Positions 1,804-60,356 of a DNA stretch of 64,000 nucleotides are shown piece by piece (within the stretch, counting starts at the first letter, position 1; every line of letters starts with the position of its first letter). A program made the position numbers and the translations under genes. The notes under the pieces are model-generated. The model searched no databases. It saw only the letters and a list, made by a program, of their open reading frames with translations, and had not been told where the DNA came from. Source of the stretch: Sulfuritalea sp. (lineage in GTDB: Bacteria > Pseudomonadota > Gammaproteobacteria > Burkholderiales > Rhodocyclaceae); contig JAMPYF010000001.1 of the NCBI GenBank assembly GCA_023700805.1, positions 124,001-188,000 on the forward strand, read 5' to 3'.

Positions 1804-2543
1804 TTCCCGCCGTCGCGCCAACGCCAACTTTCGCCCAGCGCGGCTTCACGCTGATCGAGCTCGCGATCGTGCTGTTCATCGTCGCGCTGCTGCTCGGCGG
1901 CATGCTGCTGCCGCTGTCGGCGCAGCAGGACATCCGGGCGCGCCAGGAAACGGAAAAACTGCTCGCCGAAACGCGCGATGCGCTGCTCGGCTATGTCGTG
2001 GTGAACGGGCGCCTGCCCTGCCCCGATACCGATGCCGACGGCGCCGAAAACGGTTCGTCGGGCGCCTGCACCGCGCAGGAAGGCGACTTCCCCTACCAGA
2101 CCGTCGGCACGACGCAATCCGACGGCTGGGGTTACCGCCTGCGCTATCGCGTGTCGTCGGCGTTCTCCGGCACCATCGCCCTGACCAGCACCGGCGACGT
2201 CTCGGTCGTCACCCGCGGCGACGATCCGACCACCGGAGGCAGCACCGAAGCAAAAAAGGAAAATGCGCTCGCCACCGCGCCGGCCGTGATTCTTTCCGTC
2301 GGCAAGAACGGCTACGGCGGCACGCCGCGCGGCGGCGGCACCGTCAGCTCGCCCACCGCGGGAACGGACGAAGCGCTGAACAACAGCGGCGCCAAGAAAG
2401 TCTCCCGTTCGCCGATGCCGATCACCTCGGGTTGTGCCGACAATGAAGTCGAAGGAACGCCGCTTTGCGAATTCGACGATCAGCTGGTCTGGCTCTCCGC
2501 CAACACGATCTTCAATCGCCTGGTTGCCGCCGGCAAGCTCTGA
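1800..2543 (+). CDS. Prepilin-type (type IV pilin / type II secretion) protein
   Basis: The 247-residue product has a short leader followed by GFTLIELAIVLFIVALLLGG, the class III signal cut by prepilin peptidase after Gly, with the conserved Glu at position +5 and a hydrophobic assembly helix. The rest is a globular domain with Cys pairs near CPDTDAD and GACTAQEGDFPYQ. The ATG overlaps the upstream stop (ATGA), so the two genes are probably co-translated; an in-frame ATG at 1791 is possible. The leader itself, AVAPTPTFAQR, is encoded by a copy of the dispersed 26-bp repeat. The stop codon is formed by the first bases of a second copy. It is a minor or pseudo-pilin; which system it serves cannot be told here. 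Confidence 0.85.
   Translation: MIPAVAPTPTFAQRGFTLIELAIVLFIVALLLGGMLLPLSAQQDIRARQETEKLLAETRDALLGYVVVNGRLPCPDTDADGAENGSSGACTAQEGDFPYQTVGTTQSDGWGYRLRYRVSSAFSGTIALTSTGDVSVVTRGDDPTTGGSTEAKKENALATAPAVILSVGKNGYGGTPRGGGTVSSPTAGTDEALNNSGAKKVSRSPMPITSGCADNEVEGTPLCEFDDQLVWLSANTIFNRLVAAGKL
1808..1833 (-). repeat. Dispersed 26-bp repeat, copy 1
   Basis: Reads CGAAAGTTGGCGTTGGCG then CGACGGCG on the minus strand. It lies inside the prepilin leader, where the antisense reading encodes AVAPTPTF. Confidence 0.85.
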
Positions 2544-2578
2544 AAGTTGGCGCTGGCGACGCGGTGACTCGCCTCAGG
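2541..2578 (+). repeat. Dispersed 26-bp repeat, copy 2
   Basis: Reads TGAAAGTTGGCGCTGGCG then ACGCGGTGACTCGCCTCAGG. It fills the junction between the convergent prepilin and galE genes: its first three bases are the prepilin stop, and its end contains the galE stop on the other strand. Confidence 0.85.
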
Positions 2579-3584
2579 CAAAGCCCTGCGGGTTCCGGCT
2601 TTGCCAGTTCCACGAATCGCGGCACATGTCTTCGAGCGTCCTGCGCGCGGTCCAGCCCAGGCGCTGCCGGGCCAGTGAAGGGTCGCCCCAGTAGGCGGCG
2701 ACGTCGCCGGCACGGCGCGCCACGATGCGGTAGGGAATCGCCCGTCCACTGGCCTGTTCGAAGCTCCGCACCACGTCCAGCACGCTGTAGCCCCGGCCGG
2801 TGCCGAGGTTCGCCGTCAGCACTTCGCGCGGATCGCGCAGAACCCAGTCCAGCGCCGCCCGGTGGCCGTCCGCCAGATCCATGACGTGGATGTAGTCGCG
2901 CACGCCCGAGCCGTCCGGCGTCGGGTAGTCGCCGCCGAAAACCTGGAGTTCCGGGCGGCGGCCGACCGCGACTTGCGTGACGAAGGGCATCAGGTTGTTG
3001 GGAATGCCGTTCGGGTCTTCGCCGATCAGGCCGGACGGATGCGCGCCGACCGGATTGAAATAACGCAGCAAGGCGACCGACCAGTCGGACGCGGCAAGCT
3101 GCAGGTCGCGCAGGATTTCCTCGACCATCAGCTTGGTGCGGCCGTAGGTGTTGGCCGGGCGCAGCGCGGCCGATTCGGCAATCGGGCTGGCATCCGGTTC
3201 GCCGTAGACGCAGGCCGACGAGCTGAAAACGATGCGCCTGACTTCCGCCCGCTGCATCGCTTCGAACAGGGCCAGGCTGCCGCAGACGTTGTTGTCGTAG
3301 TAGCGCAGCGGCTCGGCAGTCGATTCGCCGACCGCCTTCAGTCCGGCGAAGTGGATCACGGCATCGATCGAGTACTGGTCGAACAGGCCGTCCAGGTCGG
3401 TGCGCGAACGCACATCGCCCCTCACGCAGGGCACCGGCCGGCCGACGATCGCTGCCAGCCGCTCCACCGCCAGCGGCTTGCTGTTGCAGAAGTTGTCGAA
3501 CAGCACCACGTCGTGGCCCGTCTCGATCAGCACCGCGGCGGTGTGCAGCGCGATGTAACCGGCGCCGCCTGTCAGCAGAATCAT
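2574..3584 (-). CDS. galE: UDP-glucose 4-epimerase
   Basis: Interconverts UDP-glucose and UDP-galactose using bound NAD, feeding surface polysaccharide synthesis. The 336-residue length is normal. It is an extended short-chain dehydrogenase with N-terminal TGGAGYI, the GalE signature HFAGLKAVGES (79-89), a Ser cluster at 121-123 and the catalytic Y147-x3-K151 (YGRTK). The third Gly of the GxxGxxG nucleotide motif is Ala here (A12). The gene ends against the prepilin gene with a dispersed repeat at the junction, and its start faces rpe across about 120 bp. Confidence 0.95.
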   Translation of the reverse strand: MILLTGGAGYIALHTAAVLIETGHDVVLFDNFCNSKPLAVERLAAIVGRPVPCVRGDVRSRTDLDGLFDQYSIDAVIHFAGLKAVGESTAEPLRYYDNNVCGSLALFEAMQRAEVRRIVFSSSACVYGEPDASPIAESAALRPANTYGRTKLMVEEILRDLQLAASDWSVALLRYFNPVGAHPSGLIGEDPNGIPNNLMPFVTQVAVGRRPELQVFGGDYPTPDGSGVRDYIHVMDLADGHRAALDWVLRDPREVLTANLGTGRGYSVLDVVRSFEQASGRAIPYRIVARRAGDVAAYWGDPSLARQRLGWTARRTLEDMCRDSWNWQSRNPQGFA

Positions 3585-3706
3585 CTATGCAATCCCGTGG
3601 ATGGATGGCCGGGATTCTAGCCGCGCTTATGGCCGCCATCACAAATCCTGAATCCGCCGCGTTGCGCCGCCGGTAGAATCTTTCCATCCACTTTCGGGAG
3701 TTCACC

Positions 3707-4396
3707 GTGTCCAAGACGTTCAGGATCGCCCCCAGCATTCTTTCCGCCAATTTCGCCAAGCTCGGCGAGGAAGTCGACAACGTGCTCGCCGCGGGCGCCG
3801 ACATCGTGCATTTCGACGTCATGGACAACCATTACGTGCCGAACCTGACGATCGGCCCGCTGGTCTGCGAAGCGCTGAAGAAGCACGGCGTCACGGCGCC
3901 GATCGACGTGCACCTGATGGTCAAGCCGGTCGATCGCATCATCCCCGACTTCGCCAAGGCCGGCGCCACTTACATCACCTTCCACCCGGAAGCTTCCGAG
4001 CACATCGACCGCACCATCGGCCTGATCCGCGAATGCGGCTGCAAGCCGGGCCTGGTGTTCAACCCGGCGACGCCGCTCGACGTGCTCGAATACACGCTGG
4101 ACAAGCTCGACATGGTGCTGCTGATGTCGGTCAACCCCGGCTTCGGCGGCCAGAAATTCATTCCCTACGTGCTCGACAAGGCGCGCAAGGTCAGCCAGAT
4201 GATAGCCGCGCGCGGCTTGAACGTCAGCCTGGAAATCGACGGCGGCGTCGGCCCCGCGAACATCCGGGAAGTGGCGCAAGCCGGGGTCGATACCTTCGTC
4301 GCCGGCTCCGCCGTATTCGGCGCCGGCCGCGACGCCGATCCGCACCGTTACGACACGGTGATCGCCGCGCTGCGCGCCGAACTGGAAAAGGCCTGA
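3707..4396 (+). CDS. rpe: Ribulose-phosphate 3-epimerase
   Basis: Interconverts ribulose 5-phosphate and xylulose 5-phosphate in the pentose phosphate and Calvin pathways. The 229-residue TIM barrel is of normal length. It shows the start motif [32 protein letters not shown] with the metal-binding His and catalytic Asp, [17 protein letters not shown], and EIDGGVG with the second catalytic Asp. A GTG start is chosen because CGGGAG lies 7 bp before it and it gives the conserved N-terminus. In many betaproteobacteria rpe is followed by gph and trpE; here gph-trp lies 9.5 kb away, so the usual cluster is split by repair and acyl-CoA genes. Confidence 0.96.
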
Positions 4397-7121: not shown

Positions 7122-7997
7122 ATGAGCAGCAGACCTTACAGCAGCGTGTTACGCGCCGGCTTGTTCGCCGGCGAAGTGCATTGGATCACCGGCGGCGGCA
7201 GCGGCATCGGCCGCTGCGTCGCCCACGAACTGGCCTCGCTCGGCGCCACCGTGATCCTGACGGGCCGCAGCGCCGACAAACTGGAACGGGTGGCGGCCGA
7301 GATCGCCGAAGACGGCGGCCGCGCCGAGATTGCCGCATTCGACATTCGCGACGAAGACGCGCTGAAGGAAGCGATACAGCAGGCGGTGACACGCCACGGA
7401 CGCATCCACGGTCTGGTCAATAACGCCGGCGGCCAGTTTCCTTCGCCGCTCACCGCCATCAGCAAGAAAGGTTTCGAGACGGTGCTGGCCAACAACCTGA
7501 CCGGCGGCTTCCTGATGATGCGCGAGCTTTACCTGCAGACCATGCAGACGCACGGCGGCGCCATCGTGAACATGACCGCCGACATGTGGAACGGCATGCC
7601 CGGCATGGGCCATTCGGGCGCCGCGCGCGCCGGCATGGCGAATCTGACCAAGACCGCTGCGGTCGAATGGGCGGCCAGCGGCGTCCGCGTCAATGCCGTC
7701 GCGCCGGGCTGGATCGCGTCTTCGGGCATGGACACTTACAAAGGTCCGGTACGCGAAATGATTCCGAAGCTGAAGCAGCACGTGCCGCTGCGCCGCCTCG
7801 GCACCGAATCCGAAGTCAGCGCGACGATATGCTTTCTGCTCTCGAAAGGCGCGTCCTTCATCACCGGCGTCACGCTGGCGATCGACGGCGGCGCGCCGCT
7901 CGACACGCCGCTGTTCCCGATTCCCGACCACCGACGTGCCGAAGCATTCGATGGCTTCCATCGCAGCGTAAGGCCCGACGTGCTGAAGGAAACCTGA
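7122..7997 (+). CDS. SDR oxidoreductase of the trans-2-enoyl-CoA reductase (PECR) type
   Basis: The 291-residue protein has the nucleotide motif TGGGSGIGR and the NNAGG motif of short-chain dehydrogenases. The usual YxxxK catalytic pair is absent: where YSASK would stand, it reads HSGAARAGMANLTK. That replacement is typical of peroxisomal trans-2-enoyl-CoA reductase and 2,4-dienoyl-CoA reductase relatives, so an NADPH-dependent enoyl-CoA reductase is the best guess. The start at 7122 is chosen because AAGGAG precedes it by 6 bp; an ATG at 7104 lacks such a site. The stop overlaps the next ATG by one base (TGATG), making this the first gene of the acyl-CoA operon. Confidence 0.85.
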   Translation: MSSRPYSSVLRAGLFAGEVHWITGGGSGIGRCVAHELASLGATVILTGRSADKLERVAAEIAEDGGRAEIAAFDIRDEDALKEAIQQAVTRHGRIHGLVNNAGGQFPSPLTAISKKGFETVLANNLTGGFLMMRELYLQTMQTHGGAIVNMTADMWNGMPGMGHSGAARAGMANLTKTAAVEWAASGVRVNAVAPGWIASSGMDTYKGPVREMIPKLKQHVPLRRLGTESEVSATICFLLSKGASFITGVTLAIDGGAPLDTPLFPIPDHRRAEAFDGFHRSVRPDVLKET

Positions 7998-9607
7998 TGC
8001 CAGTGCTGAAATCGGCCATCGATACCGGCTCGGCCGCCTTCGCCGCCAACGTCGCGCGCATGTCCGAGCGGCTGGCCGAGGTGCGCGCGCTGGAACAGAA
8101 GGTGCGCGATGAGTCGGCTTCCAAGCGCGACAGGTTCGAGAAGCGCGGCCAGTTGCTGCCGCGCGAGCGCGTCGCGCGCCTGATCGACCGCGGCAGCGAT
8201 TTCGTCGAGTTCGCCACGCTGGCCGGACTCGGCATGCACGACGACGACGGCGACAAGTCGGTGCTCGGCGGCGGCTCCATCATCGGCATCGGCACGGTGG
8301 CCGGCAAACGCTGCGTGGTGCTGGCCAGCGACAGCGCGATCAAGGGCGGCACGATACCGCCGATGGGCCTCAGGAAAAGCCTGCGCGCGCAGGAGATCGC
8401 CCGCGACAACCGCCTGCCGTTGATTTACCTCGTGGAAAGCGGCGGCGCCAACCTGATCTACCAGTCGGAAATCTTCATCGAAGGCGGCCGCAGCTTCGCC
8501 AACCAGGCGCGCCTGTCGGCCGCCGGCATTCCGCAGATCGCCATCGTGCACGGCGCTTCCACGGCCGGCGGTGCTTACCTGCCGGGGCTCTCGGATTACG
8601 TGATCCTGGTGCGCGGCCGCTCCAGCATTTATCTCGCCGGCCCGCCGCTGGTCAAGGCCGCCATCGGCGAGGATGTCGACGAGGAAGCCCTGGGCGGCGC
8701 CGAGACCCATGCCGGCGTCACCGGCCTCGGCGAATACCTGTGCGAGAACGACGCCCATGCGATCGCCACGGCGCGCGAAGTCATGGACAAGCTGAACTGG
8801 AACGCCGTACCACCAGCGCCAACTCTTGTGCCTCCCCGCCATTCGCCCGAAGAGCTGCTCGGCCTGGTGCCCGCCGACGAGCGCGAACCTTACGATGTGC
8901 GCGACGTCATCGCGCGACTGGTCGATGCCTCCGACTTCCTCGAATTCAAGGCCGCCTACGGCAGCGACACGATCTGCGGCCACGCCCGTCTGCACGGCCA
9001 TACCGTGGGCATACTCGGCAACAACGGGCCGATCCAGCCCAATGGCTCGACCAAGGCCGCGCAGTTCATCCAGCTCTGCGACCAGAGCGCGACGCCCTTG
9101 ATCTTTTTGCAGAACACCACAGGCTACATGGTCGGCTCGGTGGCCGAACGCGCCGGCGCGATCAAGCACGGCTCGAAGATGATCCAGGCCGTGGCCAACG
9201 CCGGCGTGCCCAAGCTGACCATCGTGCTCGGCGGTTCCTACGGCGCCGGCAATTACGGCATGTGCGGGCGCGGCTTCGATCCGCGCTTCATCTTCGCCTG
9301 GCCCTCGGCGCGCACCGCCGTGATGGGCGCGGCGCAGGCGGCCAAGGTCATGGAAATCGTCGGCCGCGCCAAGCTCGAACGCGCCGGCCAGCCCGCCAAC
9401 GAAGCGGCGCTGGCGGCCATCAGCGAAGGACTGCGGCTGCGCCTGGAACAGGAATCGACCGCGCTGTTCGGCACCGCGCGCATGTGGGACGACGGCATCA
9501 TCGACCCGCGCGACACGCGCCGCATCCTCGGACTCTGCCTCGATATCGCCGCCGAAGGCGCTGCGCGCACGCTACGTCCCAACACCTTCGGCGTGGCGCG
9601 GCTGTAG
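7997..9607 (+). CDS. Acyl-CoA carboxylase, carboxyltransferase (beta) subunit
   Basis: The 536-residue protein is the carboxyltransferase half of a biotin-dependent acyl-CoA carboxylase of the methylcrotonyl-/geranyl-CoA type (LiuB/AtuC). Crotonase-fold motifs include KGGTIPPMGLRK, YLVESGGANLIYQ, GASTAGGAYLPG, NTTGYMVG and GGSYGAGNYGMCGRGFDPRF. It transfers carboxyl from biotin on the subunit encoded at 11042-13024. A dispersed repeat encodes AVPPAPTLV near residues 270-278, in the linker between the two crotonase halves. The gene order carboxyltransferase, acyl-CoA dehydrogenase, biotin carboxylase recalls atuC-D-F, but the substrate cannot be decided from sequence alone. Confidence 0.92.
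   Translation: MPVLKSAIDTGSAAFAANVARMSERLAEVRALEQKVRDESASKRDRFEKRGQLLPRERVARLIDRGSDFVEFATLAGLGMHDDDGDKSVLGGGSIIGIGTVAGKRCVVLASDSAIKGGTIPPMGLRKSLRAQEIARDNRLPLIYLVESGGANLIYQSEIFIEGGRSFANQARLSAAGIPQIAIVHGASTAGGAYLPGLSDYVILVRGRSSIYLAGPPLVKAAIGEDVDEEALGGAETHAGVTGLGEYLCENDAHAIATAREVMDKLNWNAVPPAPTLVPPRHSPEELLGLVPADEREPYDVRDVIARLVDASDFLEFKAAYGSDTICGHARLHGHTVGILGNNGPIQPNGSTKAAQFIQLCDQSATPLIFLQNTTGYMVGSVAERAGAIKHGSKMIQAVANAGVPKLTIVLGGSYGAGNYGMCGRGFDPRFIFAWPSARTAVMGAAQAAKVMEIVGRAKLERAGQPANEAALAAISEGLRLRLEQESTALFGTARMWDDGIIDPRDTRRILGLCLDIAAEGAARTLRPNTFGVARL
8803..8829 (-). repeat. Dispersed 26-bp repeat, copy 3
   Basis: Reads ACAAGAGTTGGCGCTGGTGG then TACGGCG on the minus strand. It is in frame inside the carboxyltransferase gene and encodes AVPPAPTL. 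Confidence 0.85.
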
Positions 9608-10924: not shown

Positions 10925-11049
10925 GCTTCAGCAAGATACTGGTGGCGAATCGCGGCGACCAGCCGCGCAGCGGCGCAGCGGCGAAGCCAAATCGCCTCGT
11001 GCGCGAAGCGCACTCAGGCGATCTCGCCGCGGAAGCTGCACATGTTTAG
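10921..11049 (+). pseudogene. Relic N-terminus of a biotin carboxylase gene with an inserted hairpin
   Basis: An ATG overlapping the acyl-CoA dehydrogenase stop (ATGA) begins MSFSKILVANRGD, the classic biotin carboxylase N-terminus. The frame then runs into unrelated sequence and stops after 42 codons. The functional gene begins again at 11042 with MFRKILIANRGE. The two starts are only about 70% identical at DNA level, so this is not a fresh duplication. The insert includes a 32-bp hairpin at 10991-11022 (ATCGCCT..GTGCGC, loop GAA, GCGCAC..AGGCGAT). Confidence 0.65.
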
Positions 11050-13024
11050 GAAAATTCTTATAGCGAACCGCGGCGAAATCGCCTGCCGCGTGATGCGCAC
11101 GGCGCGCACGCTGGGCTATCGCACGGTCGCCGTGTATTCAGACGCCGATGCCGGGGCACCGCATGTCGGCCTCGCCGACGAGGCGGTGCACATCGGCCCG
11201 CCTCCGGCGGCCGGGTCCTATCTGAACATCGCTGCGCTGCTCGCCGCCGCAGGGAAAACCGGTGCCAATGCCGTCCATCCCGGCTACGGCTTCCTCAGCG
11301 AGAACGCAGATTTCGCCCACGCCTGCGTCGAGGCCGGCCTGGTCTTCATCGGTCCGCCGGCCGCGGCGATCGCCGCGATGGGCGACAAGGCGGACGCCAA
11401 GCGGCGCATGATCGCCGCCGGCGTGCCGACGATACCCGGCTATCTAGGCGAGGACCAAAGCGACGAAGAACTGACGGCCGCTGCGCAGAAGCTCGGCTAT
11501 CCGCTGCTGGTCAAGGCCGTCGCCGGCGGCGGCGGGCGCGGCATGCGCCTCGCGCAGGCTAGCGCCGACCTGCCCGAGGCGCTGGCCGCTGCGCGGCGCG
11601 AGGCGCAGGCCGCCTTCGGCGACGCCACGCTGATGCTGGAACGCCTGATCGCGCACGGCCGGCATATCGAGATCCAGGTCTTCGCCGACGCCCACGGCAA
11701 TGCCGTGCATCTGGGCGAGCGCGACTGCACGACGCAAAGACGGCGGCAGAAAGTCATCGAGGAAGCGCCCTCGCCCATCGTCACTCCGGTCATGCGCGAA
11801 ACCATGGGACGCGATGCCGTGGCGGCCGCGCTGGCGGTCGGCTACCGCGGCGCCGGCACCGTCGAGTTCATCGTCGACCAGGAGCTGCGCCACTACTTCC
11901 TCGAAATGAACACGCGGCTGCAGGTCGAGCACCCGGTCACCGAAATGCTCACCGGACTGGATCTCGTCGAATGGCAGCTGCGCGTCGCGGCCGGCGAGCC
12001 GCTGCCGGCGCGCCAGGACGAAATCGTCTGGCGCGGCCATGCGATCGAGGCGCGGCTGTATGCCGAAGATCCCTATTCACCCGGGGCCGGCTTCGTCCCG
12101 CAGGCCGGTCCGGTGCTGCATTTCCGGCCCGAGGCCGCGTTGCGAGACGGCGTGCGCATCGACGCTGGCATCGCCGAAGGCGGCAGCGTAACGCCCTTCT
12201 ACGACCCGCTGCTGGCGAAAGTGATCGCCCACGGCAGCGATCGCACTGACGCGATCCGTCGCCTGATGGCGGCACTCGAAGACGCGCCGCTGCTGGGCCT
12301 GGCTACCAACGGCCGTTTCCTGCGCGACCTGCTCGACCACGAGCGCTTTCGCAGCGCCACGCTGCACACGACGCTGCTCGACGAATGGGCGGCAAGCGGC
12401 GCAGCCATCCTGCAGCGCCCGCAGCCGAACGATGGCGACTGGCAGCTTGCCGCCGCGATCTTTGCCGGCGCAACAGGGTGGCGTGCAAAGAGCGTCGCGG
12501 GCTTCGATCTGACGCTGATGTGCGGCGCTGAAACACGCAGGACAAGAGTTGGCGCTGACTCGCCTTGCGTACCTGGAACGCCGCTTCGCGGGCAGGTAAC
12601 GGCGATCGATGGGCGCATCGACGACAACGGCCGCCTGCGCTACACCATGGATGGCGTCACGCGCCACGCCATCGCCCACCGCGAGGGCGACCTGCTTCAC
12701 CTGGCGCGCGACGCCGCCGTCTTCGTCTTCCGCGAAGCTTCGCCCTTCCCCGCGACCGAGACCCGCCACGATCCGCTCACGGCACGCGCCGCCGTGGCCG
12801 GCACCGTGACCCGCCTCGAAGTCGGCGCCGGCGACACCGTGAGCGCCGGCCAGACCCTGGCCGTGATCGAAGCCATGAAAATGGAAATGCGCGTGACGGC
12901 GAACGCCGCCGGCATCGTCGCCGCGGTCCGCGTCCTGCTCGGCCAGCAGGTCGAGGCCGGCGCCATACTGGTCGAACTCAGCATCGAGGAAATGCCATGC
13001 CTGCCCACGACAAAGCCATCCTGA
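11042..13024 (+). CDS. Acyl-CoA carboxylase, biotin carboxylase/biotin carrier (alpha) subunit
   Basis: The 660-residue protein carboxylates its own biotin with ATP and bicarbonate. The N-terminal biotin carboxylase part shows KILIANRGEIACRV, AVHPGYGFLSEN, the ATP-grasp loop VKAVAGGGGRGMRL, and EMNTRLQVEHPVTE with catalytic Arg. The biotinyl domain at about 585-655 carries EAMKMEM with the biotinylated Lys. Length and layout match LiuD/AtuF-type subunits. A dispersed repeat encodes RVGAD near residues 503-507, in the linker between the two domains. The start has no strong ribosome binding site and follows a relic start region, so translation may depend on the operon. It overlaps the next gene by 28 bp. 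Confidence 0.93.
   Translation: MFRKILIANRGEIACRVMRTARTLGYRTVAVYSDADAGAPHVGLADEAVHIGPPPAAGSYLNIAALLAAAGKTGANAVHPGYGFLSENADFAHACVEAGLVFIGPPAAAIAAMGDKADAKRRMIAAGVPTIPGYLGEDQSDEELTAAAQKLGYPLLVKAVAGGGGRGMRLAQASADLPEALAAARREAQAAFGDATLMLERLIAHGRHIEIQVFADAHGNAVHLGERDCTTQRRRQKVIEEAPSPIVTPVMRETMGRDAVAAALAVGYRGAGTVEFIVDQELRHYFLEMNTRLQVEHPVTEMLTGLDLVEWQLRVAAGEPLPARQDEIVWRGHAIEARLYAEDPYSPGAGFVPQAGPVLHFRPEAALRDGVRIDAGIAEGGSVTPFYDPLLAKVIAHGSDRTDAIRRLMAALEDAPLLGLATNGRFLRDLLDHERFRSATLHTTLLDEWAASGAAILQRPQPNDGDWQLAAAIFAGATGWRAKSVAGFDLTLMCGAETRRTRVGADSPCVPGTPLRGQVTAIDGRIDDNGRLRYTMDGVTRHAIAHREGDLLHLARDAAVFVFREASPFPATETRHDPLTARAAVAGTVTRLEVGAGDTVSAGQTLAVIEAMKMEMRVTANAAGIVAAVRVLLGQQVEAGAILVELSIEEMPCLPTTKPS
12541..12564 (+). 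repeat. Dispersed 26-bp repeat, copy 4 (3' half shortened)
   Basis: Reads ACAAGAGTTGGCGCTGAC then TCGCC, so the CACGGCG part seems deleted. It is in frame inside the biotin carboxylase gene and encodes RVGADS. Confidence 0.7.
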
Positions 13025-13971: not shown

Positions 13972-14646
13972 ATGAACACCATCCGCTCCGTCACCATCGA
14001 TCTCGATGGCACCCTGCTCGACACCGTTCCCGATCTCGCCGCGGCGGCGAATGCCATGCTGCGCGAAATGGGCCGCCCCGAATACCCGACAGCCACCATC
14101 GCCGCCTTCATCGGTCGCGGCATTCCCAAGCTCGTTGCGCGCTGCCTGCCCGACCTCGACGAGGCCGCGGTGGAACAGGCCCAGGCCATCTTCCGCCGCC
14201 ATTACGCGATCGAGAACGGCCGCCGCTCGACGCTGTTTCCCGGCGTGCTCGAAGGCCTGCAGGCTTTCCGCGCCGCCGGCCTGCCGCTGGCGGTGATCAC
14301 CAACAAGGCGGCGGCATTCACCGAGCCACTGCTGGTCGCCACGAAGCTCGGCATCTGGTTCAATTTCGCCGTTTCCGGCGACAGCCTGCCGGAGAAAAAG
14401 CCCCATCCCCTGCCCTTGCTCCACGCCTGCCAGCGCATGGGCACGCTGCCCGCCGAGAACCTGCACATCGGCGATTCGCGCCACGACGCCGCCGCGGCGC
14501 GCGCCGCCGGCTGTCCGGTGTTCCTCGTGCCTTACGGCTACAACGAGGGCGAGGATGTGCAAGGAATCGACTGCGATGCTATAGTCACATCGCTGGCGGA
14601 GGCGGCGCGCCGTGTCGCCAGCACCAACTTTCGAAAGATCGCCTGA
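13972..14646 (+). CDS. gph: Phosphoglycolate phosphatase (HAD family)
   Basis: Hydrolyses 2-phosphoglycolate formed by RuBisCO oxygenation or DNA repair. The 224-residue HAD protein has motif I DLDGTLLDT (D10 and D12), the helical cap domain, motif II in AVITNK, motif III Lys in LPEKKPHP and motif IV HIGDSRHDAAAARAAGC. The ATG at 13972 gives the family start just before motif I. The C-terminal tail RRVASTNFRKIA is encoded by a dispersed repeat, so the normal C-terminus was altered or extended. The gene stands directly before the trp genes, as in many betaproteobacteria. Confidence 0.92.
   Translation: MNTIRSVTIDLDGTLLDTVPDLAAAANAMLREMGRPEYPTATIAAFIGRGIPKLVARCLPDLDEAAVEQAQAIFRRHYAIENGRRSTLFPGVLEGLQAFRAAGLPLAVITNKAAAFTEPLLVATKLGIWFNFAVSGDSLPEKKPHPLPLLHACQRMGTLPAENLHIGDSRHDAAAARAAGCPVFLVPYGYNEGEDVQGIDCDAIVTSLAEAARRVASTNFRKIA
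14608..14633 (-). repeat. Dispersed 26-bp repeat, copy 5
   Basis: Reads CGAAAGTTGGTGCTGGCG then ACACGGCG on the minus strand. It encodes the C-terminal RRVASTNF of gph, a reading frame different from the one used by most antisense copies. Confidence 0.85.
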
Positions 14647-18465: not shown

Positions 18466-19278
18466 ATGTCTGACATCCTCAATAAAATTCTCGCCGTCAA
18501 GCGCGAGGAAGTCGCGGCGGCTTCCGCTGCCAAGCCGCTGGCGGTCGTCCGCGCGGCAGCCGAAGCGCAGCTGACGGCACGCGATTTCGTCGGCGCCATA
18601 CGTTTGAAAGTTGGCGCTGGCGACACGGCGCGCAATGGAAAAATCGGCGCGGCGATCATCGCCGAAATCAAGAAGGCCAGCCCGTCGAAGGGCGTGATCC
18701 GCGCGGATTTTCGTCCGGCGGAGATCGCCGCGGATTACGAGCAGCACGGCGCCGCCTGCCTCTCGGTGCTGACCGACCAGCCCTTCTTCCAGGGCTCGGA
18801 AGCCTACCTGCGCGAGGCGCGCGCCGCCTGTTCGCTGCCGGTGCTGCGCAAGGATTTCCTGGTCGATTCCTACCAGGTCTATGAAGCCCGCGCCATGGGC
18901 GCCGACGCCATCCTGCTGATCGTCGCCGCACTGTCGCTGTCGCAGATGCAGGAGATGGAGGCCATCGCCCAGGCCTTGGGCATGGGCGTGCTGGTCGAGT
19001 GCCACGACGCCGCCGAACTCGACATCGCGTTGCAGTTGGCGACGCCTTTGATCGGCATCAACAACCGCAACCTGCGCACTTTCGAAGTCAGCCTCGATAC
19101 CACGCTGTCGCAGCTCGGTCGCATTCCGGCCGGGCGCATCGTCGTCACCGAATCGGGCATCCTCGCGCCGGCCGATGTGGCCCTGATGCGATCAAACGGT
19201 GTGCATGCCTTCCTCGTCGGCGAAGCCTTCATGCGCGCCCCTTCGCCGGGCGCGGAGCTCGCCAGACTTTTCGCTTAA
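18466..19278 (+). CDS. trpC: Indole-3-glycerol phosphate synthase
   Basis: Closes the indole ring of CdRP to give indole-3-glycerol phosphate. The 270-residue TIM barrel has [33 protein letters not shown] with the catalytic Lys, [45 protein letters not shown] and TESGI. Just before the first barrel strand lies an extra segment, [15 protein letters not shown], about 7-8 residues longer than expected for the family; it is encoded by a dispersed repeat. The start is 5 bp after the right arm of the GxxExxY element. The stop overlaps the convergent DUF2892 gene by 3 bp. Confidence 0.95.
18604..18630 (+). repeat. Dispersed 26-bp repeat, copy 6
   Basis: Reads TTGAAAGTTGGCGCTGGCG then ACACGGCG, the closest copy to the consensus. 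It is in frame in trpC and encodes LKVGAGDTA. Confidence 0.9.
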
Positions 19279-36985: not shown

Positions 36986-37122
36986 GACTTGCCTCCTGTA
37001 TGCGGCCCACCGCCTGACCAGGGCCGATGTTAAGGCCTTCCTCCGCGCGGTGAGGTGGCGGCGTTGCGGCGGAAGCCGCCAGCGCAGCGGCCGGCCCATT
37101 TGCCGGCCTGACGAGAACGGGT

Positions 37123-42896: not shown

Positions 42897-42928
42897 TCAA
42901 GAGTTGGCGCTGACGGCACGGCGACTCA
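42897..42928 (+). repeat. Dispersed 26-bp repeat, copy 8
   Basis: Reads TCAAGAGTTGGCGCTGACG then GCACGGCGACTCA. It fills the junction between convergent rfaE2 and the TAXI gene, beginning 1 bp after one stop and containing the other stop. Confidence 0.88.
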
Positions 42929-48430: not shown

Positions 48431-50323
48431 ATGCCGAAGAAGACCGCCGCCCGGCCCTCGATCCCCCGCCGCAGCGTCGTGCCCGACGCCCTCGATCTGC
48501 GCGACCGGCCCTACCAGCCGTCGATCGCCGTCGCGCCAGCGCCAACTCTCAAGCCGCAGATCGCCCTGCCGGTACTCAACCAGGAGGACAGCAGCGCCTG
48601 CACCGGCTTTGCGCTGGCCAGCGTGGTGCACCATCTGCAGCGCCGGCGCGAGCCGAAGGCCAAGCCGGTCTCGCCCTGGATGATCTACTCGATGGCGCGG
48701 CGCTACGACGAATTTCCCGGCGCCGCCGCGGACACCGGCTCCAGCCTGCGCGGGGCGATGAAAGGCTGGTACAAGCACGGCGTCTGCCGCGACGAGCTGT
48801 GGCAGTTCATCGACATGCCGCCTGCCGCCAAACGCGCCGCGGACGACTGGTGGCTCGACGCCGCGACGCGGCCGCTGGGCGCCTACTACCGCGTCGAATC
48901 GCGCTCGATCACCGACATGCACGTCGCGCTCAACGAAGTCGGCATCCTCTATGCGAGCGCGGTCTGCCATGCCGGCTGGAACGAGGGCCTGGGCGCGGCC
49001 AGGGCCGGCGGCAGCTGGTGGCAGATCCCGCCGCGCCAAGCCGCGCCCGACGATGGCGGCCACGCCTTCGTCATCGTCGGCTACACCGGCGAGGGCTTCA
49101 TCATCCAGAACTCCTGGGGCGAAACCTGGGGCAGCGGCGGCCTCGCGGTGCTGAGCTACGAGGACTGGATCGCCAATGCCATGGACTGCTGGGTGGCCCA
49201 GCTCGGCGTGGTCACCGAGCAGCACCTTGAAATCGCCGATGCCGTCTCGCTGCGCGTCGACCGCGGCAGAGTGCGCCTCGCCACCGATCTGGTGCTGCGC
49301 GATCGCGAGATCTCGCCCTTCATCATCGACATGGAAAACAACGGGCGGCTTTCGGCCAGCGGGCGCTTCCGCACCCAGCCCGGCGACGTCGCGGCGCTGG
49401 TCGGCCCGCAACTCGCCGCGGCGCGCAGGAACTGGGGCCTGGCGGCGGACGCCGCCGTAGACATCGCGATCTACGCCCACGGCGGACTGGTCGGCGAGGA
49501 TGACGCCGCCGCCACCGCGGCCGCCTGGATTCCGGCGCTCTACGAAGCGAAGATCTTCCCGATCTTCCTGATGTGGGAGACCGACCTGATGTCCACCTTG
49601 AAGAACCGCCTCGAAGATCTGATCACGGGCCAGCCGCGCCTCACCGCCGGCCTCGGCGACCAGCTCAAGCATTTCTGGAACCAGCGCGTCGAACGCCTGC
49701 TGGCTGGGCCGGGCAGCGTGGTCTGGGGCGAGATGAAGCAGAACGCCGACGCCATCTCCGCCGCGCCCAACAGCGGCGGGCGCCTGCTCTACGAAGCGGC
49801 GAGGGCTTCGCCGGTGTTCTCCCGGTCGCCGGTGCGGCTGCACCTGATCGGCCATTCCGCCGGTTCCATCGTGCATAGCCATATCGTCGATCGGCTGTGC
49901 GGGCTGGGCTGGAACTTCGAGACCCTGAACCTGATGGCGCCGGCGGTCACCGTCGATCTCTTCAATCGCTGCGTGCTGCCGCGCCTGACGCGGAACGACG
50001 GCCAGGGCAGGGTCAAGCAGCTCAACCAGTTCCACCTCGGCGACAGGCAGGAGCAGGCCGACCCGAGCTGCAAGCCCATTCTCTACTACACGCGCTCGCT
50101 GCTCTACCTGGTGTCGGAATCCTTCGAAGGCGGCAAGCGCACGCCGCTCCTGGGCATGGAGAAATACTGGCAGCAGGCCATCGCCGCGCTGAACCTGCCC
50201 AACGCGCGCGCCTGGGCTTCGCCCGGAGCCGAGAGCCAGAGCGCGACGCACGGCGGCTTCGACAATGACGAGGCGACGTGCAAGAGCGTGATCGCCCTGA
50301 TCAAGGGCGTCGCACCGAATTAG
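48431..50323 (+). CDS. Fusion of a papain-like (C1) cysteine peptidase and a serine hydrolase
   Basis: The 630-residue protein has two enzymatic parts. Residues about 25-260 are a C1-type peptidase with the oxyanion Gln and nucleophile in NQEDSSACTGFALASVVHH (Q51, C57), the His in GGHAFVIVGY (H211) and the Asn in IQNSWGETWG (N227). Residues about 340-600 are an alpha/beta hydrolase with AHGGLV (349-354) and the nucleophile elbow IGHSAGS (S476). No signal peptide, propeptide or membrane segment is visible, so it may act in the cytoplasm or be exported in another way. A dispersed repeat encodes VAPAPTL (34-40). Small exported proteins follow. The role is unknown. Confidence 0.87.
   Translation: MPKKTAARPSIPRRSVVPDALDLRDRPYQPSIAVAPAPTLKPQIALPVLNQEDSSACTGFALASVVHHLQRRREPKAKPVSPWMIYSMARRYDEFPGAAADTGSSLRGAMKGWYKHGVCRDELWQFIDMPPAAKRAADDWWLDAATRPLGAYYRVESRSITDMHVALNEVGILYASAVCHAGWNEGLGAARAGGSWWQIPPRQAAPDDGGHAFVIVGYTGEGFIIQNSWGETWGSGGLAVLSYEDWIANAMDCWVAQLGVVTEQHLEIADAVSLRVDRGRVRLATDLVLRDREISPFIIDMENNGRLSASGRFRTQPGDVAALVGPQLAAARRNWGLAADAAVDIAIYAHGGLVGEDDAAATAAAWIPALYEAKIFPIFLMWETDLMSTLKNRLEDLITGQPRLTAGLGDQLKHFWNQRVERLLAGPGSVVWGEMKQNADAISAAPNSGGRLLYEAARASPVFSRSPVRLHLIGHSAGSIVHSHIVDRLCGLGWNFETLNLMAPAVTVDLFNRCVLPRLTRNDGQGRVKQLNQFHLGDRQEQADPSCKPILYYTRSLLYLVSESFEGGKRTPLLGMEKYWQQAIAALNLPNARAWASPGAESQSATHGGFDNDEATCKSVIALIKGVAPN
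48526..48552 (-). repeat. Dispersed 26-bp repeat, copy 9
   Basis: Reads TTGAGAGTTGGCGCTGGCG then CGACGGCG on the minus strand. It is in frame near the N-terminus of the peptidase fusion and encodes AVAPAPTL. Confidence 0.85.
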
Positions 50324-50672: not shown

Positions 50673-51215
50673 ATGGAAGACTGGCTCCGTCGCAACGAGC
50701 ATGGCGTAAAAATGCTGGCTGCCGCGGCCGCGGCCGTATTTACGCTGATCCAGTACTTCGGCCACTTGAAGGAAGTGCGGGTCGAGAAGACGCTGGGTTT
50801 TTATGAGCGGTTTTCCACCGAGCCGATCTTTGCCGCACGCACAGGAGTTCTGAAAAAATGGGAGTCGCTGGAGCCGAAACTGGCGCAGTTGCCCACACCC
50901 GCCACGCGGGAAGAAGCCATCGCGCTGCGCAAACAGTGGCAGGCAATCGTGGTGGCCGCAATCAAAGGCGACGCAGATTTTGTCGCCAGCACCGACATCA
51001 TGGTCGACTTCTTCGACGCCCTGCAGGTCTGCATCGAGAACGACATCTGCGACAGGAAATCGGCACAGGAACTGATGCAGGGGGCGGCGACCATTTTCGT
51101 CGGCAACAACTGCCCCTACGTCGCCCATGCCCGCTTCGATCAGAAGATCGCGAACTACGGCGTCAAGGCAGCGACCTTCGCCGGACAGCCCTGCAAGGTC
51201 GAAATCTACAAGTAG
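50673..51215 (+). CDS. Membrane-anchored protein of unknown function
   Basis: The 180-residue protein has one membrane segment near the N-terminus (VKMLAAAAAAVFTLIQYFG). A helical domain follows with ERFSTEPIFAARTGVLKKWE and, further on, several Cys (VCIENDICDRK, NNCPYVAHARF, QPCKVEIYK). The start has TAGGAG 5 bp upstream, which overlaps the previous stop. Probably part of the peptidase-fusion operon. A dispersed repeat begins exactly at its stop. Confidence 0.72.
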   Translation: MEDWLRRNEHGVKMLAAAAAAVFTLIQYFGHLKEVRVEKTLGFYERFSTEPIFAARTGVLKKWESLEPKLAQLPTPATREEAIALRKQWQAIVVAAIKGDADFVASTDIMVDFFDALQVCIENDICDRKSAQELMQGAATIFVGNNCPYVAHARFDQKIANYGVKAATFAGQPCKVEIYK

Positions 51216-51240
51216 CCGTGGCGCCAACGCCAGCTTTCGT
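51213..51240 (-). repeat. Dispersed 26-bp repeat, copy 10
   Basis: Reads CGAAAGCTGGCGTTGGCG then CCACGGC on the minus strand. It lies directly after the stop of the membrane-anchored protein gene. Confidence 0.75.
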
Positions 51241-51885: not shown

Positions 51886-51912
51886 TCGGGAGTTGGCGCT
51901 TGCCGGCCCGCG
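51886..51912 (+). repeat. Dispersed 26-bp repeat, copy 11 (diverged)
   Basis: Reads TCGGGAGTTGGCGCTTGCC then GGCCCGCGG. It is intergenic, upstream of uvrA. Confidence 0.6.
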
Positions 51913-52072
51913 GTCTCGACACACCCGGAATTCCGCTTCGCGGCGGGCGAGCGGAATTCCCGGCAGACAGAGTCCGGCACGGCGACCCTGGCCGTGGCAG
52001 GGTGGGGACGCGTTGGCTATCGACTCCGCGCCGGGGTATAGTCTTCGGTTGCTCCAACCTCGACCATGCACC

Positions 52073-55906: not shown

Positions 55907-57028
55907 TCAGCCGCTGATCAACTTCACGTCGAAGGCGCGTTCGACGAACCACAGCAGGGCGATCGCCAGGGTTGCCAACGAGCCGCCCATGAACACCACA
56001 CGGCGATAAAAGCCGGTGCCGCGCAGCGCATAGGCCAGCGGCAGAAAGGCCGCGACGATGGCCAGTTGGCCGGTTTCCACGCCCAGATTGAAACCGAGCA
56101 GGGACAGCACCAGCGTCTCCCGCGGCAGCCCGAGTTCCGCCAGCACGCTGGCAAAACCGAAACCGTGGATCAGGCCGAAGCCGAAAGCCACCATCCAGCG
56201 CCGCCGCTCGACCAGCGGCTTCAGGTTGTTCGCCGCGGCCAGCACCACCGAAGCGGCGATCGCCGATTCCACCAGCCGCGAAGGCAAGGCGACGAGGCCC
56301 AGGGCCGCGAGCGACAGCGTGATCGAATGCGCGACGGTGAAGGCGGTCACCACCCAGAGCACCTCGACCAGGGCCTGGCGAAAATTGGCGACGCCGCGCC
56401 AGCGCCGCGCCTCATGCACCAGTACCGCCGGCAGCAGCAGCGCGAGCAGGAACAGGATGTGGTCGAAGCCGATCCAGATATGCCAGATGCCTTCGACCAG
56501 GTATTGGCCGAAAGCCGCCAGGCGCGAGACCTCGCCGGCGGCGAAGCGCTGCTCGGCACGCTGCGGCGAAAGCACCGCGGTCTGCGTGCTGCCGTCCAGC
56601 CCCAGGCGCAGGAGGCCGCGATGCAGGGCGTCGAGTTCGAACAGCAGGCTGTAGTCGAGCGCCAGTTCGCCGCCGGCGGACGGGCAGCTGCCGGCCAGTC
56701 GCAGCACGGCGTAGCTGCCGTCGCTGTGGCTGTCGATCAGGTGGTCGGCAACCGCCAGCCGGCACTCGCCGCCGCGCCGCAACGCGAGGCGGCCCAGCGA
56801 CCAGGCGGCGATCTCGGCGTGGCGGGCGCGGACTTCGCCCCAGGTGATGCCGCCATCGCCGTCGGCATCGAGGCCGAGGGCGAAATCGATGTCGCGCAGC
56901 GCGATGTCCCATTGCCCCGTGACTTCCCTGCCCTGGACGTCGAGCACCAGATAGCTGTCGCTGGCCTTGTGCGCCAGCGCCGGCAGCGCCAGCAGCAGCA
57001 ACAGCAGGCACAGGGCGCGACGCAGCAT
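55907..57028 (-). CDS. HupE/UreJ-family membrane protein with N-terminal exported domain
   Basis: The 373-residue protein has a signal peptide (LCLLLLLLALPALAHK) and a periplasmic domain with an EF-hand-like loop, DADGDGGITWGEV. A HupE/UreJ-like membrane part (about 175-365) follows, with WIGFDHILFLLALLLP, HSITLSLAALGLV, ANNLKPL and FGFGLIHGFGFASVLAELGL. HupE relatives transport nickel or cobalt; this longer subfamily has no firm substrate. The start overlaps the stop of the TPR gene by one base. Confidence 0.82.
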   Translation of the reverse strand: MLRRALCLLLLLLALPALAHKASDSYLVLDVQGREVTGQWDIALRDIDFALGLDADGDGGITWGEVRARHAEIAAWSLGRLALRRGGECRLAVADHLIDSHSDGSYAVLRLAGSCPSAGGELALDYSLLFELDALHRGLLRLGLDGSTQTAVLSPQRAEQRFAAGEVSRLAAFGQYLVEGIWHIWIGFDHILFLLALLLPAVLVHEARRWRGVANFRQALVEVLWVVTAFTVAHSITLSLAALGLVALPSRLVESAIAASVVLAAANNLKPLVERRRWMVAFGFGLIHGFGFASVLAELGLPRETLVLSLLGFNLGVETGQLAIVAAFLPLAYALRGTGFYRRVVFMGGSLATLAIALLWFVERAFDVKLISG

Positions 57029-58254
57029 CAGCGCCCCGTTCCGCCAGGGCTTGCCGCGCGCCGTGTCACCAGCGCCAACTCTTGGCCGAGGCGGCGCAGC
57101 CGGGCGTCCTCGAAGCCGCTGGCCGCCAGCCAGTCGCGCGCCGGCTGGGCGGCGGCGGCATCGCTGGCGGCGAGCGCGGCTTCGAGCAGGATGAGGGCAT
57201 CGCGCGGCTCGCGCTGGACGCGGTAGTTCTCGGCCGCCAGACGCAGCGCGGCGCCGGCATCGCCGCGCAGGCGCAGGCGGTAGCGCGCCTCCTCGGCGCG
57301 ATGCGTGGTGTCGCCGCGCAAGCCGGCGGCGGCGAAACGTTCGCCGAGGGCCTGCGCCAGCCGCGCCGCCTCCGGCCGCCGCAGCGCCGCCGCGGCCTCG
57401 GCCAGGCGCAGCAGCAGGTTGTCGGCGGACTCCCAGCCGGCCAGCGCGACGAGCACTTCGGCAGGGCGGTTCTGGTCGAGCAGGAAGTCGCCCCAGGCGG
57501 CGAGCAGGTAGCCGTCGTCGCGGCCCAGCGCCAGGGCGGCGCGATAGTGGCTTTCCGCCAGCGCCGGCTGGCCGCGCCAGGCGGCGACTTCGCCGAGCCG
57601 GGTCAGCAGCCAGAGCCGGTTGCCGGCATCGCCGGTCGTCGCCAGGGCCTGCTGCAGGGTCCGGTAACCGGCATCGAGATGGCCACCGTAGGCCTGCACC
57701 AGGCCGCTGCAGCCGCCGAATAGCGTCGCCCGGCCGAGACCCTGCAAGGCCGCGCACTCCTGTTGCGCCGCCGCATAATCGGCCTGCACCAGGAAGATCG
57801 CGGCGCGCCAGGCATGGGCCGCGGCGAAATCGGGATCGAGCGCCAGGGCCGCGGCAAAATCATCGAGGGCGCCGCCGAAATCGTGGCGATATTGCCGCAG
57901 CAGACCGCGAACGACGCGCAAGGAAGCTGTCCTGGGCTCGCCAAAGCGAGCGATCACTGCCTCGGCATAGCCCACATAGCGAGGGTCTCCACGCGCCATC
58001 GCAAGATCGAAATAGGCCTGCGCCAACAAGGCCGCGGGCCCCGCTGCGCCGGGTGCGGCCAGCATGGCGGCGCGCAGTGCCGCCAGTTCGCGCGCGCTGC
58101 CGTCGCCGGCGCGCAGGGGCAGGCGCTCCAGCAACTCGCCGTCGTCCAGCGGTTTGCGCGGCGCAGCAAGGGCGGACGCGGCCAGCGCAGCCACGACAAG
58201 CGGCAGCACAAACACGCGGATAGTGCGAATACAGGTCAACTCGCGGAATGTCAT
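57028..58254 (-). CDS. Exported TPR-repeat protein
   Basis: The 408-residue protein has a signal peptide (VFVLPLVVAALAASALA) and several tetratricopeptide-like repeats between about 80 and 360, such as ALDPDFAAAHAWRAAIFLVQ and PALAESHYRAALALGRDDGY. These form a helical scaffold for protein contacts. The tail QELALVTRRAAS is encoded by a dispersed repeat. It is coupled to the HupE-like gene, so the two probably act together. Confidence 0.82.
   Translation of the reverse strand: MTFRELTCIRTIRVFVLPLVVAALAASALAAPRKPLDDGELLERLPLRAGDGSARELAALRAAMLAAPGAAGPAALLAQAYFDLAMARGDPRYVGYAEAVIARFGEPRTASLRVVRGLLRQYRHDFGGALDDFAAALALDPDFAAAHAWRAAIFLVQADYAAAQQECAALQGLGRATLFGGCSGLVQAYGGHLDAGYRTLQQALATTGDAGNRLWLLTRLGEVAAWRGQPALAESHYRAALALGRDDGYLLAAWGDFLLDQNRPAEVLVALAGWESADNLLLRLAEAAAALRRPEAARLAQALGERFAAAGLRGDTTHRAEEARYRLRLRGDAGAALRLAAENYRVQREPRDALILLEAALAASDAAAAQPARDWLAASGFEDARLRRLGQELALVTRRAASPGGTGR
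57059..57085 (-). repeat. Dispersed 26-bp repeat, copy 12
   Basis: Reads CCAAGAGTTGGCGCTGGTG then ACACGGCG on the minus strand. It encodes QELALVTRR near the C-terminus of the TPR protein, a reading frame unlike the trpC, rsmI and biotin carboxylase copies. Confidence 0.85.
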
Positions 58255-58325: not shown

Positions 58326-58541
58326 ATGAGCAAGCTACTGTCCATCCTGATCGCTGCCGCTTTTGCCGCCGTTTCCGCCGGTTCCTTCGCTGCCTCGCAT
58401 GGCGGCGCCATGAAGGACGACAAGAAGATGGAGAAGAAGGACGAGAAGGCCGCCAAGAAAGACGCAAAGGCCGAGAAGAAGGAAGAGAAGAAGGACGCCA
58501 AGGCCGAGAAGAAGGAAGAAAAGAAGGCCGAGAAGAAGTAA
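58326..58541 (+). CDS. Small exported Lys/Glu-rich protein, paralog 1
   Basis: The 71-residue product has a signal peptide (MSKLLSILIAAAFAAVSAGS) cleaved near FAAS. The mature part is almost entirely Lys, Glu, Asp and Ala in repeats of the type AEKKEEKKDAK, likely a charged helix. GAAGGAG lies 7 bp before the ATG and a strong terminator follows. Its neighbour at 58752 is a clear duplicate. Confidence 0.78.
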   Translation: MSKLLSILIAAAFAAVSAGSFAASHGGAMKDDKKMEKKDEKAAKKDAKAEKKEEKKDAKAEKKEEKKAEKK

Positions 58542-58751: not shown

Positions 58752-58949
58752 ATGAGCAAGCTGCTTTCCATCCTCGTCGCCGCCCTGTTCGCCACCGTTT
58801 CCGCCGCTTCCTTCGCCGCCGACGCGCCGAAGAAGGAAGAGAAGAAGGCCGAAAAGGTCGAGAAGAAGGAAGAGAAGAAGGCTGAAAAGGCCGAGAAGAA
58901 GGAAGAGAAGAAAGACGCGAAGGCCGAGAAGAAAGAAGCGAAGAAGTAA
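58752..58949 (+). CDS. Small exported Lys/Glu-rich protein, paralog 2
   Basis: The 65-residue product starts MSKLLSILVAALFATVSAAS, cleaved near FAADA, and continues with AEKKEEKK-type repeats. It is a tandem duplicate of the gene at 58326. Ribosome binding site, spacing and terminator are nearly the same (AAGGAGTCTTACATGAG against GAAGGAGTCTACATGAG). Confidence 0.78.
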   Translation: MSKLLSILVAALFATVSAASFAADAPKKEEKKAEKVEKKEEKKAEKAEKKEEKKDAKAEKKEAKK

Positions 58950-58992: not shown

Positions 58993-59001
58993 TTTGCCCG
59001 T

Positions 59002-59640: not shown

Positions 59641-59653
59641 GCCCTGCGCCTAT

Positions 59654-60289
59654 TCACGTCGGCTCCTCGCGGCGCCAGACGCTGGCCAGCCAGGGCTGCT
59701 GCTCGCGGGGCAGGCCCGGCGGGCGGTAGTAATGTTCGAGTTCGGCGAAGCCCGCGGCGGCCAGGTAGCCACGCCATGCCGCAAGATCGTAATAGGCGCC
59801 GTAGCGCTCGCCGCCGATGCTCTCCTGGTTGTCGCCGCGCGGATTCGAGCTGAACAGCACGCCGCCCGGCTTCAGCGTCGCATGCAGTTGGCGCAGCACC
59901 CGCGGCAGTTCCTGCATCGGCACGTGGAACAGCGAGGCATTGGCGAACACGCCGTCGAAGCGGGCCGGCGGCAGGTCCAACGCCAGAAAATCCTGCTGCC
60001 AGACTTCGCCGACGGCGTGGGCGCGCGCCATGTCGGCCAGCGCCGGCGCGCCCTCGAGGCCGATCACGCAATGCCCGCGACGGGCGAAGGCCAGCAGGTC
60101 GCGGCCCGGTCCGCAGCCGAAATCCAGGATGGTGAAGGGCGGCGCAGCCTGGATATGGCGCAGCAGCGCCTCGATGTTCTGCGCCACGTCGTGGTCGCGG
60201 GTGCCTTCCCAGAAGGCCTGGGCGCGCGTCTGGTAGTGCCCCAGCGTGCGGGCGACCAACTGCTGCAGGGTGTCGGGATCGAGTTTCAT
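59654..60289 (-). CDS. Class I SAM-dependent methyltransferase
   Basis: The 211-residue protein has the SAM motif FTILDFGCGPGRDLLAFARR, an acidic residue after it (VIGLEGAPALADMAR) and FDGVFANASLFHVP. N-terminal VARTLGHYQTRAQAFWEGTR is found in many small methyltransferases of proteobacteria. The substrate is unknown. ATG 60289 gives this usual start; a GTG at 60316 is in frame. Confidence 0.87.
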   Translation of the reverse strand: MKLDPDTLQQLVARTLGHYQTRAQAFWEGTRDHDVAQNIEALLRHIQAAPPFTILDFGCGPGRDLLAFARRGHCVIGLEGAPALADMARAHAVGEVWQQDFLALDLPPARFDGVFANASLFHVPMQELPRVLRQLHATLKPGGVLFSSNPRGDNQESIGGERYGAYYDLAAWRGYLAAAGFAELEHYYRPPGLPREQQPWLASVWRREEPT

Positions 60290-60328
60290 GTCTGGCGCGG
60301 GAGGCAGAGGCGACACAGCTTACCTCTT

Positions 60329-60356
60329 CGCCGTGCCGCCAGCACCAACTCTTGCG
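60329..60356 (-). repeat. Dispersed 26-bp repeat, copy 13
   Basis: Reads CGCAAGAGTTGGTGCTGGCG then GCACGGCG on the minus strand. It is intergenic, between the methyltransferase and pntB. Confidence 0.85.

Follow-up and report, generated by a model that had tools for sequence, protein, structure and literature searches.

A dispersed, asymmetric motif of Sulfuritalea and related betaproteobacteria as a candidate DNA uptake sequence

DNA uptake sequences are reported, in the source passages drawn on here, as known only from the families Neisseriaceae and Pasteurellaceae. Those of the Neisseriaceae (DUS) number hundreds to thousands of copies per genome, follow phylogeny in their dialects, occupy permissive sites and are missing from some relatives (PMC3630211 and PMC2397512, in the parts consulted); the uptake signal sequences (USS) of the Pasteurellaceae form an extended asymmetric motif, again with clade dialects (PMC12616744, likewise in part). 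Here we describe a motif dispersed through a 64,000-nucleotide stretch of Sulfuritalea sp. (assembly GCA_023700805.1, contig JAMPYF010000001.1, positions 124,001 to 188,000 of the forward strand; hereafter the window), a genus that NCBI taxonomy places under Sterolibacteriaceae, Betaproteobacteria. Among named records, trpE finds its best matches in Sulfuritalea metagenome genomes, with 97% identity for the closest. The full form of the motif is RARAGTYGGCGCTGGCGNNACGGYG: 20 specified positions, scored against AGTYGGCGCTGGCGNNACGGYG, plus two free ones, sharply bounded, about 25 bp long (22-25 bp), asymmetric and non-palindromic. Our analysis leads us to consider it, on balance, probably a DNA uptake sequence, a double-stranded tag of self. 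This GC-rich 20-base tag, with at least three dialects, phages that carry it and palindromic mini-elements that would insert preferentially inside it, could quite possibly represent a third, independently evolved means by which Sulfuritalea and related betaproteobacteria recognise their own DNA during natural transformation.

With DUS, whose receptor is ComP, the motif has in common copy abundance, dialects, permissive sites and the existence of motif-free relatives; it differs in its few inverted pairs. With USS, whose candidate receptor is ComN/PpdA, it shares extended asymmetry, clade dialects and carriage by host phages, but it is GC-rich and has neither the 9-nt GCGG core nor the AT-rich extension. 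Judged by eye, AGTYGGCGCTGGCGNNACGGYG is not one of the 10-12-mer DUS dialects with their invariant CTG core, as set out in the consulted part of PMC3630211: it holds CTG by letters, though not within a DUS-type 10-mer. Nor does the consensus, by the same judgement, show the 9-nt core with GCGG or the AT-rich extensions of USS (PMC12616744, in part). Since the sequence is neither DUS nor USS, it may work in the same way yet be a member of neither. The reverse strand of the dialect found in genus g43 shares TGCCGTC with what we take to be the letters of AT-DUS, a likeness that may be due to chance. Repetitive extragenic palindromic (REP) sequences, bacterial interspersed mosaic elements, Rickettsia palindromic elements and other miniature repeats are, like the motif, short, dispersed and in many cases within genes; the motif differs in being non-palindromic and in showing no clean insertion. 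Chi, FtsK-orienting polar sequences (KOPS) and highly iterated palindrome 1 are over-represented genome-wide signals of about 8 bp, strand-biased or palindromic; the motif, over-represented like them, is instead long, asymmetric and strand-balanced in total counts.

The 4,156,694 bases of the window's source genome, G000, contain the exact core 354 times (182 on the forward and 172 on the reverse strand) and its reversed pattern not once; total strand counts are balanced genome-wide. Sites matching at least 18 of the 20 positions number 74 in 464 kb of G000 and 71 in 400 kb of G002, a relative with another dialect (the C form, below), with none for the reversed control in either. Scores cluster at 19 and 20 (62 of the 74 sites, 60 of the 71), so that the majority of copies are near perfect. 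The dispersal described in the earlier note stands, though its density of one copy per 5 kb is better put nearer one per 6 kb, from the 74 sites in 464 kb. Within the window, the 14-mer core with up to two mismatches is matched 19 times, against 1.85 expected (100 shuffles, largest 6). Strong over-representation on both strands, expected of a functional uptake sequence, is therefore present. Nothing connected with the motif came out of Rfam, tRNA or tandem-repeat scans of the window.

Sense copies often encode xVGAGxTA, as they might if copies were by-products of codon and amino-acid usage. Synonymous codon shuffling speaks otherwise: the genes of the 464 kb, called with our own codon-usage script and not a standard gene finder, contain 27 exact cores, against a mean of 0.25 and a maximum of 2 in 20 shuffles. 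With the reversed control at zero and 42 of the 145 copies in the two genomes lying between genes, the probability of this explanation, which the earlier note had named as its own possible undoing, is negligible.

Position 4 of the motif separates two dialects, AGTCGG in most Sulfuritalea and AGTTGG in three genomes including G000. The T-form core is present in 276, 312 and 354 copies in three of the 31 genomes of the genus and in 0-6 copies in the other 28; the C-form core in 38-47 copies in the three T genomes, 52-393 in 27 of the remaining 28, and 9 in the last, G017. C-form strands in G002 are balanced (196/189). The core recognized in the earlier note is real, but its T at position 4 is peculiar to one lineage, the C form being the more widespread spelling.

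How the dialects differ in place was seen by comparing G000 with G002 over 146.7 kb aligned at 84.5% identity (best non-overlapping alignments longer than 300 bp and above 74% identity, skipping sites up to 15 bp from an alignment end). Thirty-one sites could be compared: 15 shared and ungapped, four shared with a nearby insertion or deletion, seven ungapped in a single genome, always G002, and differing by substitution alone, and five in a single genome with an insertion or deletion. Of the 15 shared ungapped sites, 13 have T in G000 and C in G002 at position 4, one has T in both and one C in both; divergence at the other specified positions is 0-20%, at the two free positions 27-33% and in the flanks 15-24%. 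The hexamer GTCGGC of G002 lies in a motif common to the two genomes in 16 contexts (16 rather than 15 because the hexamer count kept sites near alignment ends), and in 15 of these its C is matched by T in G000; outside such contexts the same is true of 11 of 421 (Fisher p 5e-20). A looser count on a smaller alignment, requiring the motif in G002 only, gives 12 of 17 against 9 of 323. Almost every shared copy has therefore received a point change from which the surrounding sequence was spared. Dialects that differ together at shared sites, as clade dialects of an uptake sequence would, are in this way visible as T versus C in one genome pair.

That the change is between C and T raises the possibility of a mutational effect, for example deamination of methylated C, on a motif kept for some other reason. 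We think this very improbable: the same hexamer elsewhere has changed in just those 11 of 421 cases, the modification would need to recognise most of the motif, and other dialects alter other bases. The change itself likely ran from C to T: a tree built from ComEC alone, with 15 rows, pairs G000 with G023, a C-dialect genome, at a support of 100/99, and T therefore looks derived.

All 13 copies listed in the earlier note lie where it put them, five on the plus and eight on the minus strand, and by our own gene calls eight are within coding sequence, four sense and four antisense, as it had said. Ten of them score 18-20 against AGTYGGCGCTGGCGNNACGGYG, the copy at 51214-51235 scores 17, and the lowest two, at 51891 (16) and 12547 (13), are split by an inserted palindrome; a further copy, at 12820-12841, had gone unlisted. 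In window coordinates, the copies are as follows.

1808-1829, minus strand: copy scoring 19 of 20, antisense at the start of the pilin-like gene 1791-2543.
2545-2566, plus strand: 19 of 20, directly past the stop codon of the same pilin-like gene, 1791-2543.
8803-8824, minus strand: 19 of 20, antisense in gene 7997-9607, by its sequence presumably carboxyltransferase-like; the G002 copy here is split by a palindromic insert.
12544-12608, plus strand: split copy, AAGAGTTGGCGCTG, then a REP-like palindromic insert, then ACGGCG, in gene 11042-13024, presumably of biotin-carboxylase type.
12820-12841, plus strand: the extra copy, 18 of 20, with C at position 4, C in G002 too.
14608-14629, minus strand: 19 of 20, antisense at the 3' end of gene 13972-14646, presumably phosphatase-like.
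18609-18630, plus strand: 20 of 20, sense in trpC (18466-19278), with eight extra residues adjoining.
39861-39882, minus strand: 18 of 20, sense in rsmI (39459-40307), ungapped against two RsmI chains (below).
42902-42923, plus strand: 19 of 20, directly past the stop codon of gene 42416-42895.
48526-48547, minus strand: 20 of 20, antisense in gene 48431-50323.
51214-51235, minus strand: 17 of 20, at the end of gene 50673-51215.
51891-51980, plus strand: split copy, AGTTGGCGCT, then a palindromic insert, then GGCACGGCG, the right half and end point being read from the sequence.
57059-57080, minus strand: 19 of 20, sense, near the 3' end of gene 57028-58254.
60329-60350, minus strand: 19 of 20, between genes 59654-60289 and 60444-61856.

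These copies allow a second explanation to be weighed, a very small mobile or REP-like repeat that spreads by self-copying while keeping the reading frame; the earlier note had suggested a tiny selfish element of frame-keeping length. Hundreds of near-identical copies, a presence that differs among species and the insertion of other small palindromic repeats in the same genomes are what such an element would give. The RsmI copy, however, aligns without gaps to the solved chains 9pzg and 5hw4 and so has the ancestral length. At the TrpC site, in an alignment of 58 rows, the conserved blocks on either side are most often 17 residues apart (41 rows), and the outgroups Aromatoleum, Thauera and Zoogloea read KIAAGxAA or similar; six of the 14 rows that carry the motif (at least 18 of 20) keep the 17-residue spacing, as in SRVGAGETAIIAE. 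The other eight, the window's own included, have 4-11 extra residues adjoining the copy, which favours the mobile repeat, and several further TrpC rows have a longer insert within the motif; small insertions and deletions near copies are therefore common. In gene 11042-13024, diverged motif-free orthologs match some motif bearers in length at the site. Among the 31 sites compared between G000 and G002 there is no clean 25-bp insertion, the sole 24-bp gap being a palindrome inside a copy. A clean insertion opposite an empty ortholog site, by which a mobile miniature repeat would be recognized, was thus seen nowhere across RsmI, TrpC and these 31 sites, and transposition leaves unexplained the C/T differences at shared sites. 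A self-copying repeat is accordingly a very unlikely source of the motif, and the suggestion of a frame-keeping selfish insertion is not supported.

The palindrome found inside two window copies (12544-12608 and 51891-51980) belongs to a second repeat, built around GAAGCGG(A/T)ATCC and 24 to about 40 bp long in the cases read. These nested palindromes resemble REP-like repeats; the motif itself, being non-palindromic, does not. In 800 kb of G002, 12 of 14 palindrome clusters are inside a motif copy, nine found by script and three by eye (loci L137-L156 and L260-L279); the script, which flags a left motif half nearby, marked those 9 of 14 as against 206 of 3000 random places. In G000 it flagged one of four clusters, against 536 of 6000 random places. 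Points of entry vary, for example after AGT or around GGCGCTGG, and both orientations occur.

The motif extends beyond Sulfuritalea. Of the genera represented by 297 genomes from the family, six have high counts of AGTNGGCGCTGGCG: Sulfuritalea, g32, g43, g62, g70 and g88. Motif-rich genomes number about 55 in all. Ten of the 11 g43 genomes have 45-317 copies and the eleventh, G293, has none; the remaining genera have 0-11 per genome, with one exception at 16. Spelling varies here too: of 29 copies in 100 kb of G132, a g43 genome, 24 have A as their final base (ending GGCA), and of nine in 40 kb of G061, a g32 genome, six have T at position 7. The 12-mer CCGCCTGAAGAA, apparently a separate repeat, occurs 12 times in 60 kb sampled from G022 (L173-L175).

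Two genomes stand out by absence. G017 has 11 exact AGTN cores and G293 none, and no alternative dialect was seen in the 152,580 and 77,909 bases, some of them N, sampled from each. The ComEC tree puts G017 among motif-bearing relatives, at a fork drawn open (86/94); to judge from this one gene, absence in G017 is likely, though not firmly, a nested loss. Over the whole order, 15 of 399 genomes contain the exact full motif, 13 of them in 1-3 copies, with no reversed matches; 11 of the 15 are outside the family, and the copies there may be transferred DNA or assembly contamination. G348, G356, G395, G456, G459 and G510, in other families of the order, have 1-3 exact full motifs each (loci L224-L227 and L230-L236), the two in G348 being about 4.6 kb apart.

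Phages carry the motif as well. An exact scan of IMG/VR returned at least 120 stretches, of which 80 loci, some from one contig or repeating the same site, were taken further: their 720,906 bases contain 111 sites of at least 18 of 20, 110 with C at position 4, and none for the reversed control. Subtracting the one copy by which each locus was ascertained leaves 31, about one per 23 kb, a density below that of the host. Eight of nine proteins checked from two viral loci match phage families, anti-repressor, endolysin, tail protein and primase among them. A phage-borne tag has a precedent in the USS of Pasteurellaceae phages (PMC6776037, in the part consulted). One viral contig, L313, has five copies between 884 and 2239, four spaced exactly 316 bp apart and the fifth 385 bp further, within a longer repeat unit. 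A common block, the motif followed by GTGCAG(G/A)GCGA, appears in otherwise different surroundings in loci L297, L298, L306, L311 and L318, four of which continue with CATGCTTTTGCCTGC(T/C)AACG.

Intragenic copies are sense and antisense in nearly equal numbers (28/24 in G000, 27/24 in G002), with no clear preference for gene sense. The peptide frames used are xVGAGxTA, ELALxxRR, AVxPAPT and RRxASAN, sense frame 0 not being seen among the 103 intragenic copies of G000 and G002; the frames in use fit tolerated amino acids. Intergenic copies number 22 of 74 in G000 and 20 of 71 in G002, where noncoding DNA makes up 11% and 8%, and a stop codon is no more than 40 bp away from nine of the 22 and ten of the 20, whereas random intergenic points come that close in fractions of 0.21 and 0.24. 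Across 800 kb of G002 the 145 copies are spaced more evenly than chance would have them (coefficient of variation 0.76 against 0.98 expected; none of 2000 simulations as even).

A near-perfect tag, on both strands, at permissive sites and rewritten together needs a process that acts on alleles according to how well they match. For Neisseria and Haemophilus the literature invokes biased uptake with recombination (PMC2397512 and PMC3630211, in the parts consulted), and since the same explanation fits here we rank an uptake sequence first. By analogy with a minor type IV pilin, a surface receptor would recognise the tag on extracellular DNA, and tagged DNA would be imported through ComEC and then recombined. 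Were uptake biased in this way, better-matching alleles would replace worse ones at the same locus, and such replacement would create near-perfect copies at permissive sites on both strands and maintain them there; a shift in receptor preference would then convert most copies together. The receptor, the uptake bias and transformation itself are what we infer in this scheme. Of the core competence genes, ComEC scores above cut-off in 29 of the 31 genus genomes, the other two giving a fragment or a weak match, and in all 20 genomes of a wider set, and DprA does so in 21 of 22 genomes checked. Pilin-like genes, detected with the N_methyl model, give 11-26 matches per genome in five genomes.

Several observations weigh against an uptake sequence, beside the extra residues at most TrpC copies. 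With 20 specified bases and one copy per 5.5-6.3 kb, the motif exceeds DUS in length and falls short of them in density. The motif-free genomes G017 and G293 retain both ComEC and DprA, so these genes do not explain the motif. ComEA (TIGR00426) is above cut-off in none of 22 genomes; the matches listed, all below cut-off, sit in open frames 781-1723 aa long (most of them near 800) that we take to be Tex-like, and a regular-expression scan of G000 (464 kb) and G002 (800 kb) found no ComEA. No pilin clearly tracks the motif among the part of the matches compared in G000, G002, G005, G016 and G017, a comparison that included only part of those of G005 and G016 and in which minor pilin clusters were too divergent to call; none was clearly present in motif bearers yet missing from G017. 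Evenness of spacing is not significant in G000 alone (P 0.15). Inverted pairs closer than 150 bp are absent among the 74 copies of G000 and occur once among the 71 of G002, so that pairs serving as terminators, common in DUS and USS though not necessary, are represented by one among 145 copies in the two genomes. Finally, no depletion was seen in non-syntenic DNA (1.15 and 2.69 copies per 10 kb, against 1.44 and 1.32 in syntenic DNA, from small numbers), and the lack of a clear difference between the two is not what DUS would predict.

The main rival is a binding site of an intracellular DNA protein, such as a nucleoid organiser, a segregation or recombination factor or something Chi-like, whose specificity has drifted along with its hundreds of sites. 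An asymmetric motif found genome-wide, in place, with lineage dialects and in phages too is compatible with such a protein, and the presence of ComEC and DprA does not track the motif. Known polar sites, Chi and KOPS, are short and strand-biased, whereas total strand counts here are balanced in both G000 and G002; and a one-base difference that is near-complete over some 700 sites, most of them in genes, is, to our mind, hard to put down to ordinary selection. We consider an intracellular protein of this kind unlikely, though not markedly so. Of the three roles that the earlier note had offered, uptake signal is thus the best supported; a protein-binding site in general is possible, and the selfish element is not supported.

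Searches of open-licence PubMed Central papers brought up no report of the motif among the titles and abstract openings listed, and none of uptake sequences in Sulfuritalea, Rhodocyclaceae or Rhodocyclales or of natural transformation in Sulfuritalea. If the motif is an uptake sequence, it would provide a third independent case, in bacteria of which numerous relatives have been sequenced and whose dialect changed recently; the debate on whether such sequences arise and spread through selection for sex or molecular drive would become directly testable, and a natural dialect series would be at hand against which to find the receptor.

Elsewhere in the window, a bacterial ribonuclease P RNA of class A lies at 37121-37622 on the minus strand, and two neighbouring genes, at 58326-58541 and 58752-58949, encode short lysine-/glutamate-rich repeat proteins with secretion-type starts.

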